Part shown: one piece after another, positions 1 through 15,302 of the stretch
Layout: each line of letters starts with the position of its first letter
Position numbering within the stretch: position 1 is the stretch's first letter
Source of the DNA: Candidatus Saccharimonadota bacterium
Lineage (GTDB): Bacteria; Patescibacteriota; Saccharimonadia; Saccharimonadales; UBA4665
DNA: 64,000 bases
Assembly (NCBI GenBank): GCA_013289705.1
Contig: JABCZM010000007.1
Coordinates: forward strand, 1 to 64,000
Direction: 5' to 3'
Program-made: the position numbers and the translations under genes
The notes under the pieces: generated by a model
The model's database searches: none
What the model was told of the DNA's origin: nothing
The model's input: the letters and a program-made list of their open reading frames with translations, nothing else

Positions 1-23
1 TCCTTTCGGCTTATACTACTCAT

Positions 24-64
24 GGCCATATTGTCTTCCTCCCAGAAAACAGTATGGCCTTTTT
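24..64 (+). terminator. Probable intrinsic terminator of a gene upstream of the window
   Basis: GGCCATA at 24-30 is an exact inverted copy of TATGGCC at 53-59 and is followed directly by a T-run at 60-64. The loop is long (22 bases). It most likely ends a plus-strand transcript that begins before the window. No gene for it is visible here. Confidence 0.55.
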
Positions 65-7882: not shown

Positions 7883-7904
7883 AAAAATACCCCTTGGCCG
7901 GGGT
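7883..7904 (-). terminator. Attenuator terminator in the proB-like leader
   Basis: On the minus strand ACCCC (7904-7900) and GGGGT (7893-7889) form a stem with loop GGCCAA, followed after one A by five T (7887-7883). It sits 40 bases before the start codon inside the leader, so it would stop transcription before the gene. The stem is short but GC-rich. Confidence 0.65.
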
Positions 7905-7955
7905 GTCTGTGCTTGTTTGTACTAGTTTGTTGAAAGATATATCAAAACACCCGGC
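7897..7955 (-). promoter_or_regulatory. Antiterminator of the proB-like leader
   Basis: GCCGGGTGT (7955-7947) can pair with ACACCCCGGC (7906-7897) with one bulged C. This uses the 5' arm of the terminator at 7904-7900, so the two folds exclude each other. The 5' arm begins right after the leader stop codon. A third element, GCTGC (7970-7966) with GCAGC (7958-7954), would sequester the 5' arm, giving a 1:2, 2:3, 3:4 layout as in classical attenuators. Confidence 0.6.
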
Positions 7956-7957
7956 TG

Positions 7958-8014
7958 CTACATGGGCAGCGGACGGGGTAATACAGATGCGGTGTATTGA
8001 TAGTGGTAATTCAT
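7958..8014 (-). CDS. Proline-rich leader peptide, 18 residues, of the proB-like gene
   Basis: The minus strand encodes MNYHYQYTASVLPRPLPM followed by TAG. Three Pro codons fall at positions 13, 15 and 17, just before the stop. The ATG is 9 bases after the -10 box, so it is at or next to the 5' end of the RNA. There is no Shine-Dalgarno. The stop codon touches the 5' arm of the antiterminator. The peptide itself probably has no function beyond ribosome position. Confidence 0.7.
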   Translation of the reverse strand: MNYHYQYTASVLPRPLPM

Positions 8015-8137: not shown

Positions 8138-8194
8138 ATGATACGCAAAGCTACATTTGCCGCATACCTCCCGCAGCCACCCATTGGGGTATAG
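8138..8194 (+). CDS. Proline-rich leader peptide, 18 residues, of proS
   Basis: The sequence encodes MIRKATFAAYLPQPPIGV followed by TAG. Three Pro codons (8171, 8177, 8180) lie close to the end. The ATG is 10 bases after the -10 box with no Shine-Dalgarno. The last two codons and the stop are inside the 5' arm of the antiterminator (8186-8199). Length, stop codon and geometry match the two other leaders at 7958 and 10483. Confidence 0.7.
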   Translation: MIRKATFAAYLPQPPIGV

Positions 8195-8223
8195 TTTTCT
8201 ATTCTTTTGAAAATGTATGCCTC
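8186..8223 (+). promoter_or_regulatory. Antiterminator of the proS leader
   Basis: GGGGTATA (8186-8193) pairs with TATGCCTC (8216-8223) with two G-U pairs, and TTTTC (8195-8199) pairs with GAAAA (8209-8213), closing a 9-base loop. The 3' arm takes bases 8220-8223, the first half of the terminator stem. ATACC (8164-8168) with GGTAT (8188-8192) is the alternative 1:2 hairpin that would release the terminator. Confidence 0.6.
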
Positions 8224-8244
8224 TCGAAAAACGAGAGGTTTTTT
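8220..8244 (+). terminator. Attenuator terminator upstream of proS
   Basis: CCTCTCG (8220-8226) and CGAGAGG (8232-8238) form a perfect 7-base stem with loop AAAAA, followed by six T (8239-8244). It lies 64 bases before proS and downstream of the proS promoter. No plus-strand gene precedes it that would need a terminator, because the neighbour is transcribed away. It is therefore a leader terminator. Confidence 0.85.
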
Positions 8245-8307
8245 ATTTCGTAACGCCACCTGGGCAACAGTACTGTAGAATTAATAACAGATAAGGGAAC
8301 AAACCAT

Positions 8308-10444: not shown

Positions 10445-10473
10445 TTGCTCAAATATGTTAAAGCTGCTATACT
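10445..10473 (+). promoter_or_regulatory. Promoter of the aspartate kinase-lysS transcript
   Basis: TTGCTC at 10445-10450 and TATACT at 10468-10473 are spaced by exactly 17 bases. The leader-peptide ATG at 10483 lies 9 bases after the -10 box. Confidence 0.75.
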
Positions 10474-10482
10474 CGCCCGGAA

Positions 10483-10539
10483 ATGAACTACCAAATTGTT
10501 CAAACTAGTATTGTTATAAAGCCCAAGCTCCGGTCGTAG
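10483..10539 (+). CDS. Leader peptide, 18 residues, of aspartate kinase-lysS
   Basis: The sequence encodes MNYQIVQTSIVIKPKLRS followed by TAG. Lys codons are at positions 13 and 15, matching the Pro positions of the two proline leaders. A run of Ile, Val, Thr and Ser precedes them, so branched-chain or Thr sensing is also possible. The first 11 bases of the frame differ by one base from those of the proB-like leader. The stop codon lies inside the 5' antiterminator arm. Confidence 0.7.
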   Translation: MNYQIVQTSIVIKPKLRS

Positions 10540-10588
10540 TACCCTCGGGCTGTTCATCTAATTCAAAAAATTCTCCCGGTACTACGAC
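10533..10588 (+). promoter_or_regulatory. Antiterminator of the aspartate kinase leader
   Basis: GTCGTAGTACC (10533-10543) is an exact inverted copy of GGTACTACGAC (10578-10588), 11 base pairs. The 3' arm shares base 10578 with the terminator stem and fills its loop, so the folds would be knotted together and compete. GCCCAAG (10521-10527) with CTCGGGC (10544-10550, one mismatch) encloses the 5' arm as the alternative 1:2 hairpin. Confidence 0.75.
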
Positions 10589-10615
10589 TTCACAGGTTAG
10601 ACGGGAGATTTTTTT
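10572..10615 (+). terminator. Attenuator terminator upstream of aspartate kinase
   Basis: TCTCCCG (10572-10578) and CGGGAGA (10602-10608) form a 7-base stem, followed at once by seven T (10609-10615). A run of A before the stem can extend it. It lies 28 bases before the aspartate kinase ATG and downstream of the promoter and leader peptide. Confidence 0.85.
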
Positions 10616-10643: not shown

Positions 10644-12026
10644 ATGACGGCAGAACATATAAGTGAGGTACTGCAGCCCAGCGTGCAGTTTGAAGAACCG
10701 CTGGTGGCAAAATTCGGCGGCACATCGATGGCTCGCCCAGAAATAGTGGCTCAGCACACAGAGACCGGGTATGACGTACCCGATGTAGTTGTGGTGTCGG
10801 CGCCAGGCACAGATGAAACGCATCAAACAAAAGTAACGGATATGCTGCTTGGCTACGCCGCTGGGGAAGTGCAGGCGGCAGACATTCAAAGCAGGTTCTT
10901 GGATTTACTGGCGAGTGCTGGTACTGGCGAGAACGAAGCCTGTCAGGCCGTCGTGACAAATATTCCAGCCGATTTGGAGGCCTGGACAGCGGCCGGCGAT
11001 CCGGTACAAGCGCTGGGCGAGTATTGGTCGGCACGGTTGTTTGCGATCCAGACAGGCCGAACATTTGTTGATGCCCGTGAGCTGATTGCGTTTGATATCG
11101 ACGGACAGTTTAATGAATTATGGACAACGGCTAATATCCAGTCGCGATTACACGCAGACGAACGTTACGTAGTACCCGGCTTTTACGGTCGTTCAGCAGA
11201 TGGACATGTGCAGGTTTTTCCACGTGGTGGATCTGATATTACAGGGGCAATTATCGCCAAAGTCCTAAATGCACGGCGCTACGACAATTGGTCAAATGTA
11301 CCAGGATTTATGACGGCCGATCCTCGAAAGGTCGATCCGGAAGTTGATCCAGCACGGTTGCTGGACAAAAGTACCTACCGTGAATCACGCGAGATGAATA
11401 ATGGTGGTACGGAGCTATTGCACCGAGCGGTGATTAGTCATCTGAACGGCACGGGCATCCCAACCATCATGCGCAATACGTTTGGCGAGCCCGGAAACTA
11501 TGGCACGGAAATTGTCGATACGCTGGATAGTTGGCAGGAAAGACCAGTCATGGCGGTGACTGGCCGGGACGACATATTGGCGTTAACACTGCACCAGTTT
11601 GGTTTAAATGAAGAAGTTGGCGCTACGGCTTTCTTGTATGATGCGCTTAAAGACGCCGCGGTGTCATACGAACACGCCGCAACTGCTACCGATGATATAG
11701 CACTGTACATACCCGGTTTTAAAGAAAATCTGGCAGCAGTGCAGGGCATTATTCGTGCGTTGGAACGCACGGGGAGAACATTTAACGTGCAGCAAGTTGG
11801 TTTGTTGCACGTAGTTGGCGAAGGCTTGGCAAAATCGAATATCTTGCGGCTACGGACGCTTGGCAGGGTGGCGACTGCACTGGCCGACGAAGGTATCGAA
11901 GGTCTTGGCGGCACCGATGTTGCTTCGAGTGCAACATTAACAATTTTTGTGCGTCCAGAAGCCGTACCGCACGCAATTCGCACGGTTCACAGAGCGCTCG
12001 GTTTAAGCGCGCTAGCTAACAGATAA
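10644..12026 (+). CDS. lysC: Aspartate kinase
   Basis: Aspartate kinase phosphorylates aspartate in the first step to lysine, diaminopimelate and threonine. The start motif VAKFGGTSMA, the FPRGGSDITGA nucleotide/substrate loop and GFMTADPRKV are clear. The C-terminal part (from about residue 310) has two ACT-like regulatory stretches. It has 460 residues, a normal length. No good Shine-Dalgarno is close to the ATG (AGGT at 10633). lysS follows after 25 bases, and an attenuator precedes. The lysC/thrA-type distinction cannot be made by sequence alone; lysC is inferred from the neighbours. Confidence 0.88.
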   Translation: MTAEHISEVLQPSVQFEEPLVAKFGGTSMARPEIVAQHTETGYDVPDVVVVSAPGTDETHQTKVTDMLLGYAAGEVQAADIQSRFLDLLASAGTGENEACQAVVTNIPADLEAWTAAGDPVQALGEYWSARLFAIQTGRTFVDARELIAFDIDGQFNELWTTANIQSRLHADERYVVPGFYGRSADGHVQVFPRGGSDITGAIIAKVLNARRYDNWSNVPGFMTADPRKVDPEVDPARLLDKSTYRESREMNNGGTELLHRAVISHLNGTGIPTIMRNTFGEPGNYGTEIVDTLDSWQERPVMAVTGRDDILALTLHQFGLNEEVGATAFLYDALKDAAVSYEHAATATDDIALYIPGFKENLAAVQGIIRALERTGRTFNVQQVGLLHVVGEGLAKSNILRLRTLGRVATALADEGIEGLGGTDVASSATLTIFVRPEAVPHAIRTVHRALGLSALANR

Positions 12027-12051: not shown

Positions 12052-14049
12052 ATGGCAACACTCAAAGACTATCGCAACGAACGCTTGCGTAAACTGGAAG
12101 AATTAAGGCAGCTGGGGATTAATCCCTATCCGGCAAAGACCGAGCGCACCAACACACTGGCTGAGATTACAGGCAAGTTCGATGACTTGCAAGGTCAGCA
12201 GGTGCAGGTTGTGGGGCGGGTGCAGAACATCCGTCGCTTTGGCAAAATTGCCTTTTTGGTGGTTCGTGACATGTCGGGCTCGTTGCAGCTTTTTTTGTCA
12301 GCCGATAAGGTCCAGTCACTAGACGCTGCCAATAGCCAGCTAGGTTTTGAGCAGATTCCGCTGATTGATACGGGTGATTTTATTCAGGCCGAAGGTCCGG
12401 TGATTAAAACCCAAACTGGTGAGATTTCGGTTGAAGTCCAGAAGCTTCGCATTCTAACCAAGAGCTTACGTCCCATGCCACTTACTCACGAAGGCTTTAC
12501 GAACAAAGAAGAGCGCTTACGCCGCCGTTACATCGATATGAATGTAAATCTTGATGTGCGCGAGCGTTTTATTCGTCGCAGCAAGTTCTGGCAAGCTACG
12601 CGTGATTTTCTGAACCAACGCGGTTTTACAGAGGTAAACATTCCAGTTTTGGAGCACACGACGGGCGGAGCGGATGCAAACCCATTTGTGACACACATGG
12701 ATGCACTCGACCAAGATTTTTACCTGCGTATTAGCCACGAATTACCGCTGAAGCGCTTACTGGGTGCTGGGTTCGAAAAAGTCTACGACATTGGCGCACG
12801 CTTCCGGAACGAAAACTACAGCGATGAGCATTTGCCCGAACACGTGGCTATGGAATGGTATTGGGCGTTCGCCGATTGGCGCGATGGCATGCAGTTCCAA
12901 GAAGACCTATTCAAATACGTTTTGCAGGAAGCTTTTGGTACGCTTCAGTTCAGGCTCGGTGAGTTTGAAGTCGATCTTTCAAAACCATGGGAAGAATGGG
13001 ACTATGCTGAAACGATTCAAAAACGCTACGGTATTGATCCGTTCAATTGTACGCTCGACGAAGTTAAAAAGGCTTTGGCCGATAACAAACTCGAAGTCGA
13101 ACAAACCGAAAACTTGCCGCGTGGTATCGATAAGCTCTGGAAAAATATTCGTAAAGACGTTGTTGGTCCTGTTTGGCTCATTAATACGCCAACCTTTGTT
13201 AGTCCGCTGTCCAAAGTAAACCCTGATCGCCCAGAAACCACGCAGCGTGCCCAGGTGGTGATTGCTGGATCGGAGCTATGTAATTTGTTTTCAGAATTGA
13301 ATGATCCCATCGATCAGCTAAACCGTTTTACGGAACAGCAGCGGATGCGCGACAGTGGTGACGACGAAGCCATGATGCTCGATATCGATTTTGTAGAAAT
13401 GCTGGAATACGGCATGCCGCCGGCTTGTGGTTTGGGCTTTAGTGAGCGTGCTTTTTGGATTTTTGAAGGTGTTTCTGCCCGCGAAGGCGTCGTCTTCCCA
13501 CAACTCCGTCACGAAATCGACGAAGTTACCAAGGCGATCTACCCAGAACTCAATTTCTCTCAGATTGCTAGTAAAAATACCGGAAGAGCCAACATCCTAT
13601 CGCCAAGCAGCGACCGTATGAGCGAAGAGCATCGTAATGCCTATAAGATGGTCGTGATTTTAAATAAACAGATCGAAACCGGTCGTGCCATGAACGCTGC
13701 CGCCCACGCCGTGTCGGGTTTTGTGGGGACGCTGCAGAACCTAGAACAGCTCGATTACTTAGAATATCGCGACAAAACTGGCGAATTTGATGCCGTGATT
13801 TCACATCACCCAACTATCATCTTGCAGGCTAGTGATGCTAAAGATTTGCTTAAAGCTTACCGCAAGGTGAACGCCGCCCATCTGCCAAATAATGCCTTTA
13901 TCGAAACCATGACTATCGGCTCATCCTACGAAGAATTAGACATCCTAAAAGAGAAAACCACCGACGAACTAGATTTCTGGGGTGTTGTATTCTTTGGCAA
14001 AACCGAAGATCTCACCAAAATCACCAAAGATTTCCAGCTTTGGAAGTAG
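12052..14049 (+). CDS. lysS: Lysyl-tRNA synthetase (class II) fused to a C-terminal DUF2000-like domain
   Basis: The first 500 or so residues are a class II LysRS with an N-terminal OB-fold anticodon domain, motif 2 (FRNENYSDEHLPEHVAMEWY) and an unusual motif 3 (CGLGFSERAFWIFEG instead of a GxDR form). From about residue 531 an extra domain begins (MVVILNKQIETGRAMNAAAHAV), resembling DUF2000/PTH2-fold proteins and ending at residue 665. Typical LysRS is near 500. GGAGG precedes the ATG. The gene is cotranscribed with aspartate kinase, 25 bases upstream. Confidence 0.88.
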   Translation: MATLKDYRNERLRKLEELRQLGINPYPAKTERTNTLAEITGKFDDLQGQQVQVVGRVQNIRRFGKIAFLVVRDMSGSLQLFLSADKVQSLDAANSQLGFEQIPLIDTGDFIQAEGPVIKTQTGEISVEVQKLRILTKSLRPMPLTHEGFTNKEERLRRRYIDMNVNLDVRERFIRRSKFWQATRDFLNQRGFTEVNIPVLEHTTGGADANPFVTHMDALDQDFYLRISHELPLKRLLGAGFEKVYDIGARFRNENYSDEHLPEHVAMEWYWAFADWRDGMQFQEDLFKYVLQEAFGTLQFRLGEFEVDLSKPWEEWDYAETIQKRYGIDPFNCTLDEVKKALADNKLEVEQTENLPRGIDKLWKNIRKDVVGPVWLINTPTFVSPLSKVNPDRPETTQRAQVVIAGSELCNLFSELNDPIDQLNRFTEQQRMRDSGDDEAMMLDIDFVEMLEYGMPPACGLGFSERAFWIFEGVSAREGVVFPQLRHEIDEVTKAIYPELNFSQIASKNTGRANILSPSSDRMSEEHRNAYKMVVILNKQIETGRAMNAAAHAVSGFVGTLQNLEQLDYLEYRDKTGEFDAVISHHPTIILQASDAKDLLKAYRKVNAAHLPNNAFIETMTIGSSYEELDILKEKTTDELDFWGVVFFGKTEDLTKITKDFQLWK

Positions 14050-14126: not shown

Positions 14127-15302
14127 ATGTTTCAGACAAACTTTTTGAGCCGTGACCAGGTAGTGGCGATGACCGGTGAGCATGGTTCGCCCTTATTTGT
14201 ATACTCTAAAGCAAAACTTATTGCTCAGGCGCAGCAGTTGCTGGCAATTCCGGCACCGTTTGGTTTGACGATTCGGTTTGCTATGAAAGCCAACCCGCAT
14301 CCAGCTATCTTGGAAATTTTTAAACAGCAAGGTATCCAGATTGATGCTAGCTCAGGCTACGAAGCGGAGCTTGCTCGGAAATGTGGTTTTCGCCCAGAAA
14401 CCATTCTAGTAACCAGCCAGCAGCTGGCGCATAATTTGCAAGATTTAGTGCCTGCCGGTATTGATTTTAACGCCACAAGCTTAAACCAGCTGGAGCAATA
14501 TGGCCGGGCGTTCCCAGGTACGTCCATTAGCGTGCGCGTTAATCCGGGTATTGGTTCGGGGCATTCAGCAAAGACGAATGTTGGCGGCATAACAAGTAGT
14601 TTTGGTATTTGGCACGAATATATTCCGCAGATTCACGAACTTGCCAAGATTCATGGTCTGAATATTGTTCGTTTGCACACTCACATTGGTGCCGGAACAG
14701 ATCCGGCGGTTTGGCAGCAGGCAGCGCTGACGAGTTTGCGGTTAATCAAAAAGTTTCCAACGGCCACTATATTGAATCTTGGCGGCGGCTTTAAAGTTGG
14801 CCGCATGGACGATGAACACGATGCCGACATGGGCATCATTGGTACAATGCTTGCGCAAGAAGTACAGAAATTTAAGGAAGAAACGGGCAGGGAACTGCAC
14901 TTGGAACTCGAACCAGGCACGTTTTTGGTAGCCAATGCGGGGATACTCGTTGCGCAGGTCGAAGATATTGTAAACACCGGCAAAAACGGCTATACGTTTT
15001 TGAAATTAAACACGGGCATGAATGACATTCTGCGGCCTGGCATGTATGGTTCGCAGCACCCAATTTCGGTGCTAAATGATTCAACCGAGACAAAAGACTA
15101 TGTGGTGGTGGGTCACAACTGCGAATCTGGCGACCTATTGACGCCGGTTGCCGGTAATCCCAATCTGTTACAGGCGCGAAAGCTCAACAAGGCTGCAATT
15201 GGCGATTTGGTTTTAATTGGTGGCGTTGGTGGCTATTGTGCCAGCATGGCCGCCCATGGCTACAATAGTTTTCCTAGTGCGGCCGAAGTAGTCATCGAGT
15301 AA
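14127..15302 (+). CDS. lysA: Diaminopimelate decarboxylase-like PLP enzyme
   Basis: This fold-type III PLP enzyme would convert meso-diaminopimelate to lysine. The PLP lysine lies in FAMKANPHP, glycine-rich GGGFKVGR and the late HNCESGDLL (with the active-site Cys) match the group IV decarboxylase family. It has 391 residues. Ornithine/arginine decarboxylase relatives are possible, but lysC-lysS next door favours LysA. TACAAT at 14114-14119 ends 7 bases before the ATG, so a leaderless transcript is likely. Confidence 0.82.
   Translation: MFQTNFLSRDQVVAMTGEHGSPLFVYSKAKLIAQAQQLLAIPAPFGLTIRFAMKANPHPAILEIFKQQGIQIDASSGYEAELARKCGFRPETILVTSQQLAHNLQDLVPAGIDFNATSLNQLEQYGRAFPGTSISVRVNPGIGSGHSAKTNVGGITSSFGIWHEYIPQIHELAKIHGLNIVRLHTHIGAGTDPAVWQQAALTSLRLIKKFPTATILNLGGGFKVGRMDDEHDADMGIIGTMLAQEVQKFKEETGRELHLELEPGTFLVANAGILVAQVEDIVNTGKNGYTFLKLNTGMNDILRPGMYGSQHPISVLNDSTETKDYVVVGHNCESGDLLTPVAGNPNLLQARKLNKAAIGDLVLIGGVGGYCASMAAHGYNSFPSAAEVVIE

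Follow-up and report, generated by a model that had tools for sequence, protein, structure and literature searches.

What controls transcription of the aspartate kinase-lysS operon in this bacterium, and which amino acid is read by the short leader gene ahead of it? The operon lies in a window of 64 kb (the whole stretch of DNA that was analysed), and the original prediction held that it is governed by an attenuator whose lysine codons respond to the supply of lysyl-tRNA, with sensing of threonine or isoleucine left as a second possibility. According to the analysis presented here the leader region is probably a genuine classical ribosome-mediated attenuator, and probably a lysine-specific one.

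Genes downstream of the leader

The following genes were assigned using protein family models and, for the kinase, a comparison with solved structures (positions refer to the window).

10644-12026, + strand: aspartate kinase gene, first of the operon (NCBIfam, Pfam; nearest among solved structures to aspartokinase 3tvi, E 5.6e-42)
12052-14049, + strand: lysS, class II lysyl-tRNA synthetase carrying a DUF2000 domain at its C-terminus (NCBIfam over cut-off, Pfam)
14127-15302, + strand: diaminopimelate-decarboxylase-like gene (NCBIfam TIGR01048 at 230 bits against a cut-off of 298)

The best NCBIfam match of the aspartate kinase scored 204 bits, which is under the curated cut-off, and lysS begins 25 nt past the kinase gene. 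The diaminopimelate-decarboxylase-like gene is situated 77 nt beyond lysS with the motif TACAAT 7 nt before its ATG, and may either be third in the operon or be transcribed from its own promoter. It adjoins lysS in the window's genome and in one relative (G069, locus L036); the gene order otherwise common in the family is proS-greA-lysS-zincin peptidase, and the lysS loci of relatives match only the synthetase part of the lysS-DUF2000 fusion.

Promoter, leader gene and RNA elements

The elements upstream of the kinase gene were located in the sequence, by a terminator scan and by folding.

10445-10473, + strand: sigma-70-type promoter, -35 TTGCTC (10445-10450), 17 nt, -10 TATACT (10468-10473) (sequence; spacing compared across leaders)
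10483-10539, + strand: leader peptide gene of 18 codons (MNYQIVQTSIVIKPKLRS), ATG at 10483, TAG at 10537-10539 (sequence; similarity to the proline leaders of glutamate-5-kinase genes)
10520-10551, + strand: 1:2-type hairpin, AGCCC (10520-10524, in the Lys13-Pro14 codons) with GGGCT (10547-10551) (folding)
10532-10549, + strand: antiterminator 5' arm, core 10533-10543 plus the pair G10532-U10589 and GGG 10547-10549 (folding of the stalled state)
10575-10589, + strand: antiterminator 3' arm, core 10578-10588, with CCC 10575-10577 within the terminator 5' arm (folding)
10572-10615, + strand: intrinsic terminator, TCTCCCG (10572-10578) with CGGGAGA (10602-10608), 23-nt loop, T7 at 10609-10615 (scan; folding)

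The promoter, the leader, the 11-base antiterminator and the 7-base terminator with seven T had all been read from the sequence beforehand, and each was recovered where it had been placed. The lysine codons of the leader are AAG at 10519-10521 (Lys13) and AAG at 10525-10527 (Lys15), and its stop codon TAG falls inside the antiterminator 5' arm. Since the leader ATG is just 9 nt past the -10 element, the transcript is probably nearly leaderless. The antiterminator core is an exact 11-bp complement, GTCGTAGTACC (10533-10543) with GGTACTACGAC (10578-10588), and overlaps the terminator stem by 1 base only. In folding this helix was lengthened by a G-U pair and, over a 3-nt bulge, by the pairing of GGG 10547-10549 with CCC 10575-10577; the full antiterminator buries CCCG 10575-10578 of the terminator 5' arm, which is used in both predicted structures. 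The 23-nt terminator loop contains most of the antiterminator 3' arm.

Occurrence of the layout in the window

Both strands of the window were scanned for sites in which a promoter is followed, 6-11 nt past its -10 element, by the ATG of a frame of 14-24 codons, and which also have a terminator as well as a helix between the end of the frame and the terminator stem. Exactly three sites were found (10483+, 8138+ and 8014-), belonging to the kinase, proS and the glutamate-5-kinase-like gene. The last two agree with the mention, in the original prediction, of two other leaders with proline codons, and served as comparators.

8138-8245, + strand: proS attenuator, leader MIRKATFAAYLPQPPIGV, antiterminator GGGGTATA with TATGCCTC, terminator 8219-8239
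7884-8014, - strand: glutamate-5-kinase-like attenuator, leader MNYHYQYTASVLPRPLPM with ATG at 8014, gene 7845-7129

In 60 first-order Markov sequences of the same dinucleotide make-up the scan returned a mean of 0.067 sites and a maximum of 1 site per sequence; the criteria were fixed after the sites had been seen, and the contrast of 3 with 0.067 therefore overstates the surprise. When the strict scan was extended to about 70 kb from elsewhere in the window's genome, no further sites appeared. The folding energy of the whole kinase leader was unremarkable (z -1.17), and its equilibrium fold was uninformative. At the contig start, before rpsB, a terminator-like hairpin (24-59) comes no more than 8 nt after a -10-like TATACT (window 11-59).

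Terminators ahead of genes are common and the pattern was chosen after inspection, so the locus might be read as a constitutive terminator next to a chance short frame, with no regulation at all. We consider this very improbable in view of the three layout sites against 0.07 expected, the exact 11-bp helix that abuts the terminator stem, and the parallel leaders that exist in other genomes.

Predicted folding and ribosome position

Unconstrained and constrained folding were performed with the front edge of the ribosome assumed to lie at the first P-site base + 15. The predicted fold switched with the position of the ribosome. With a ribosome at Lys13 (front edge 10531) the antiterminator formed with 12 pairs and 3 further pairs across the bulge (-19.7 kcal/mol), and it was still the most stable structure once the terminator had been completely transcribed, at -19.7 versus -16.2 kcal/mol for a fold forced to contain the terminator. 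When the ribosome was placed at the stop codon the terminator alone was left, and with no ribosome the 1:2 hairpin was predicted to form first and the terminator to be the final best fold. A ribosome stalled at Lys15 overlaps the antiterminator in part, and the full-RNA fold then favours the terminator; by this modelling Lys13 is the sole well-placed lysine codon of the kinase leader and Lys15 is so in part. The antiterminator and the terminator are predicted to be mutually exclusive and to be set by the position of the ribosome, which is the classical logic of the trp and his operons.

Under the proposed mechanism transcription would probably start 2-3 nt ahead of the leader ATG. When lysyl-tRNA is plentiful, the ribosome would reach the stop codon and cover the antiterminator 5' arm, and with this arm covered the terminator would form upstream of the aspartate kinase gene. 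When lysyl-tRNA is scarce, the ribosome would wait while Lys13 occupies its A site. Its leading edge would lie at about 10531, immediately before the first base of the arm at 10532; the antiterminator would then form, and the aspartate kinase and lysS, perhaps together with the diaminopimelate-decarboxylase-like gene, would be transcribed. We infer that the leader is translated, that the ribosome stalls in it, and that the operon responds to lysine.

Lysine codons in the leaders of relatives

The stall window of the kinase leader reads Ser-Ile-Val-Ile-Lys and is ambiguous when taken alone. The loci of relatives were scanned for leaders on both strands. Few genomes of the order have an aspartate kinase gene: at E <= 1e-30 it was found in 8 of 393. 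The aspartate kinase genes of the genomes G268 and G478 each have an attenuator with a Lys-codon leader (MYQVMTIKKQATPARRELTS and MTIKTKHIFSKPRVV, with the lysine segments IKKQ and IKTKH); both genomes belong to another family of the same order, and their leader RNA sequences are unrelated to that of the window's kinase leader. A further Lys leader, likewise of unrelated RNA sequence (MFKLVIPEEVKKRQKLLP, segment EVKKRQK; locus L114, 2553, - strand), was identified at dapA (over the NCBIfam cut-off) of G073, which falls in the same family as the window's genome. Its stop codon lies within an exact 10-bp antiterminator arm, and this arm has leader base 51 as its first base, as does the arm of the kinase leader. 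The product of dapA carries out the committed step to lysine. The dapA leader of G073 sits just downstream of a tmRNA gene.

The nearest homologue of the kinase (62% identity) is also found in G073 and is bare of an attenuator, and none was seen at the aspartate kinase genes of G143, G162 and G174. Among about 30 lysS loci of relatives none had an attenuator like that of the kinase-lysS operon, and among about 30 of their proS loci none had one like that of the window. The bare kinase gene of G073 and these lysS loci weigh against the proposed lysine attenuator. A terminator upstream of lysS in G027 (L032) was discarded, having no convincing leader. The aspartate kinases of named genomes were only distant and were unhelpful for the comparison of leaders.

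When the control windows of the four Lys leaders were pooled, 7 of the 20 codons were lysine (binomial P 1.2e-4, with 6% expected from the proteins of the window). Lysine is the sole residue common to all four windows; among the relatives compared, lysine control codons recur at two other aspartate kinase leaders and one dapA leader. By folding, some lysine stall led to the antiterminator and the stop position to the terminator in each of the four. In this simple calculation the switching stalls were those at the earlier lysine codon(s) of each leader; the later ones not favouring the antiterminator were Lys15 of the kinase leader, Lys12 and Lys15 of the G073 dapA leader, and Lys11 of the G478 leader.

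Aspartate kinase can feed threonine and isoleucine too, and the same leader-peptide attenuator could be gated by isoleucine, or by isoleucine, valine and threonine, like the thr operon of E. coli. Ile10, Val11 and Ile12 precede Lys13 and, judged by geometry, stalls at these codons likewise leave the antiterminator free; isoleucine is also mildly enriched in the Lys-leader windows (4 of 20 codons, P 0.03, in three of the four). Such gating would have to be reconciled with the presence of lysS in the operon, with the homoserine dehydrogenase and asd genes that were not detected in the window's genome, and with lysine codons that fall exactly at the proline codon positions of a similar Pro leader. 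Most of the concern about threonine and isoleucine is answered by the dapA window EVKKR, which contains neither residue, and by lysine as the sole shared residue; with Ile10 and Ile12 inside the stall window of the kinase leader, isoleucine sensing there is best described as unlikely. What stands of the second possibility in the original prediction is this small chance of an isoleucine response. Its main proposal, gating of the lysC-lysS transcript by the supply of lysyl-tRNA, gains support from the Lys leaders at the aspartate kinases of G268 and G478 and at dapA of G073, and we regard it as quite likely that the kinase-lysS leader reads this supply by classical ribosome-mediated attenuation of transcription.

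Proline leaders and the reading frame

Pro13 and Pro15 of the window's glutamate-5-kinase-like leader align exactly with Lys13 and Lys15 of the kinase leader, and the proS leader has Pro12, Pro14 and Pro15. The claim that the lysine codons occupy the positions of proline codons in the other two leaders is therefore exact for the former and approximate only for proS. The window's glutamate-5-kinase-like copy is weakly matched by TIGR01027 (23 bits) and is without the usual N-terminal KVGTN motif. Elsewhere in the order, a short frame with spaced proline codons stands ahead of each of ten related glutamate-5-kinase-type genes (genomes G069, G074, G088, G094, G168, G193, G203, G268, G275 and G375; loci L103-L110, L112 and L072), the terminator being unclear in the automatic anatomy for G094 and G268. 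Proline accounts for 18 of the 45 control-window codons in nine glutamate-5-kinase-type leaders. In G073 a Pro-type leader (MSKKLRFASVLPLPPTRA; L065, 3694, - strand) with a terminator precedes a frame of 266 codons that itself lies ahead of proS.

Among the four alignable 18-codon Pro leaders (those of the window, G074, G088 and G168, a set outside which the kinase leader lies) there were 21 differences at the first position of codons, 25 at the second and 63 at the third. Judged from these sequences, the excess at the third position is the mark of a translated peptide, and the opposite pattern, in which the RNA bases are kept and the reading frame is not, was absent.

This count also bears on a switch made of RNA only or bound by a protein (a lysine riboswitch, a T-box or another), in which the short frame would be accidental. 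The RNA arms by themselves form alternative structures, and the kinase leaders of different genomes have no peptide sequence in common. Such a switch is nevertheless highly unlikely: besides the prevalence of third-position changes in the similar Pro leaders, the stop codon lies within the antiterminator arm in both the kinase leader and the dapA leader, and the control codons fit the amino acid of the gene in the Pro set and the Lys set alike. Moreover, Rfam gave no match at the gathering score in the 64-kb window and, at E up to 10 between 10380 and 10700, no lysine riboswitch, T-box or other riboswitch among the weak matches, in agreement with the earlier remark that no lysine riboswitch is recognisable.

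Returning to the lysine attenuator, the kinase leader resembles the glutamate-5-kinase Pro leaders (MNYQ....TS.V....L., joint P about 0.002 versus codon shuffles), and the same comparison found no resemblance to the proS leader. An origin of the kinase leader by recoding of a Pro leader (Pro13 and Pro15 to Lys13 and Lys15) is put forward as a suggestion, since the resemblance had been noticed before it was tested.

An aspartate kinase without a detectable lysine pathway

The window's genome (97.4% complete) gave no match for DHDPS (PF00701), Asd (PF02774) or homoserine dehydrogenase (queried with PF03447 and with the protein of G073), and likewise no match for any of the three was found in G268. 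As controls, PF00701 and PF02774 matched in 14 of 14 genomes and PF03447 in 13 of 14; PF03447 also misses the homoserine-dehydrogenase-like protein of G073, which makes the test with this model a weak one. DHDPS and Asd are present in G073. With dapA, asd and homoserine dehydrogenase undetected, the aspartate kinase is an orphan in the window's genome and in G268 too, and no route is evident by which extra aspartyl phosphate would reach lysine, a point against the proposed mechanism. Lysine thus seems to control a kinase that has no entry to the known lysine pathway. A decarboxylase acting on imported diaminopimelate would give the operon a role in lysine supply without dapA, and would leave the role of the kinase unexplained.

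A wider and rather doubtful scenario is that a copied and recoded Pro leader of a glutamate-5-kinase gene (Pro13, Pro15 and Pro17 to Lys, Lys and Arg) became the lysyl-tRNA sensor in a lineage with near-leaderless attenuators for proline and lysine genes, and that the product of the orphan kinase under its control is used for something besides making lysine.

Comparison with known attenuators and significance

In E. coli the thrABC operon (aspartate kinase I-homoserine dehydrogenase I) is controlled by the thrL attenuator with threonine and isoleucine codons. The window shares with it an aspartate kinase gene under putative leader-peptide attenuation and differs in its lysine codons and in that the threonine branch was not found in the window's genome. 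The lysine riboswitch (L box) regulates lysC in E. coli and B. subtilis; the aspartate kinase is likewise under apparent control by lysine status in the window, but there is no riboswitch match, and the translated leader would sense charged tRNA instead of lysine.

Amino acid leader attenuators of Proteobacteria and Actinobacteria include those of trp, his, leu, ilv, thr and phe, with trpS and leuS as candidates in Streptomyces (PMC1262725), and these two phyla alone were named as having leader-peptide attenuators before hisS-type genes in bacilli were added in 2010 (PMC2965389). As in those systems, the kinase attenuator comprises a short leader whose codons include those of the regulated amino acid, along with 1:2, 2:3 and 3:4 segments and an intrinsic terminator, and its targets are biosynthetic or tRNA synthetase genes. 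Unlike them it has lysine codons, aspartate kinase-lysS (elsewhere dapA) as target, an ATG 9 nt after the -10 element and a terminator loop of 23 nt with most of the antiterminator 3' arm, and it occurs in a small-genome lineage. The mgtCBR leader of Salmonella, which contains proline codons and controls magnesium and virulence genes (PMC3641672), and the glutamate-5-kinase Pro leaders similarly have spaced proline codons followed by an attenuator; at positions 13 and 15 the kinase leader has lysine instead of proline. In open-licence full texts no leader-peptide attenuator was found reported for Saccharibacteria, the candidate phyla radiation or Patescibacteria, and no Lys-codon leader at dapA or aspartate kinase. 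The mechanism is a known one (as in the trp operon); for its lysine specificity and for the lineage that literature yielded no earlier report.

A lysine-specific leader would lengthen the list of amino acids read by attenuation, and an orphan kinase that lysine appears to control raises an immediate question about metabolism. Attenuation by leader peptides is familiar chiefly from Proteobacteria and Actinobacteria; leaders whose codons fit the genes they precede, for both proline and lysine, in an order of very small genomes suggest that reduced bacteria still measure single amino acids, and such codons can help to forecast the signals to which genes without annotation respond.
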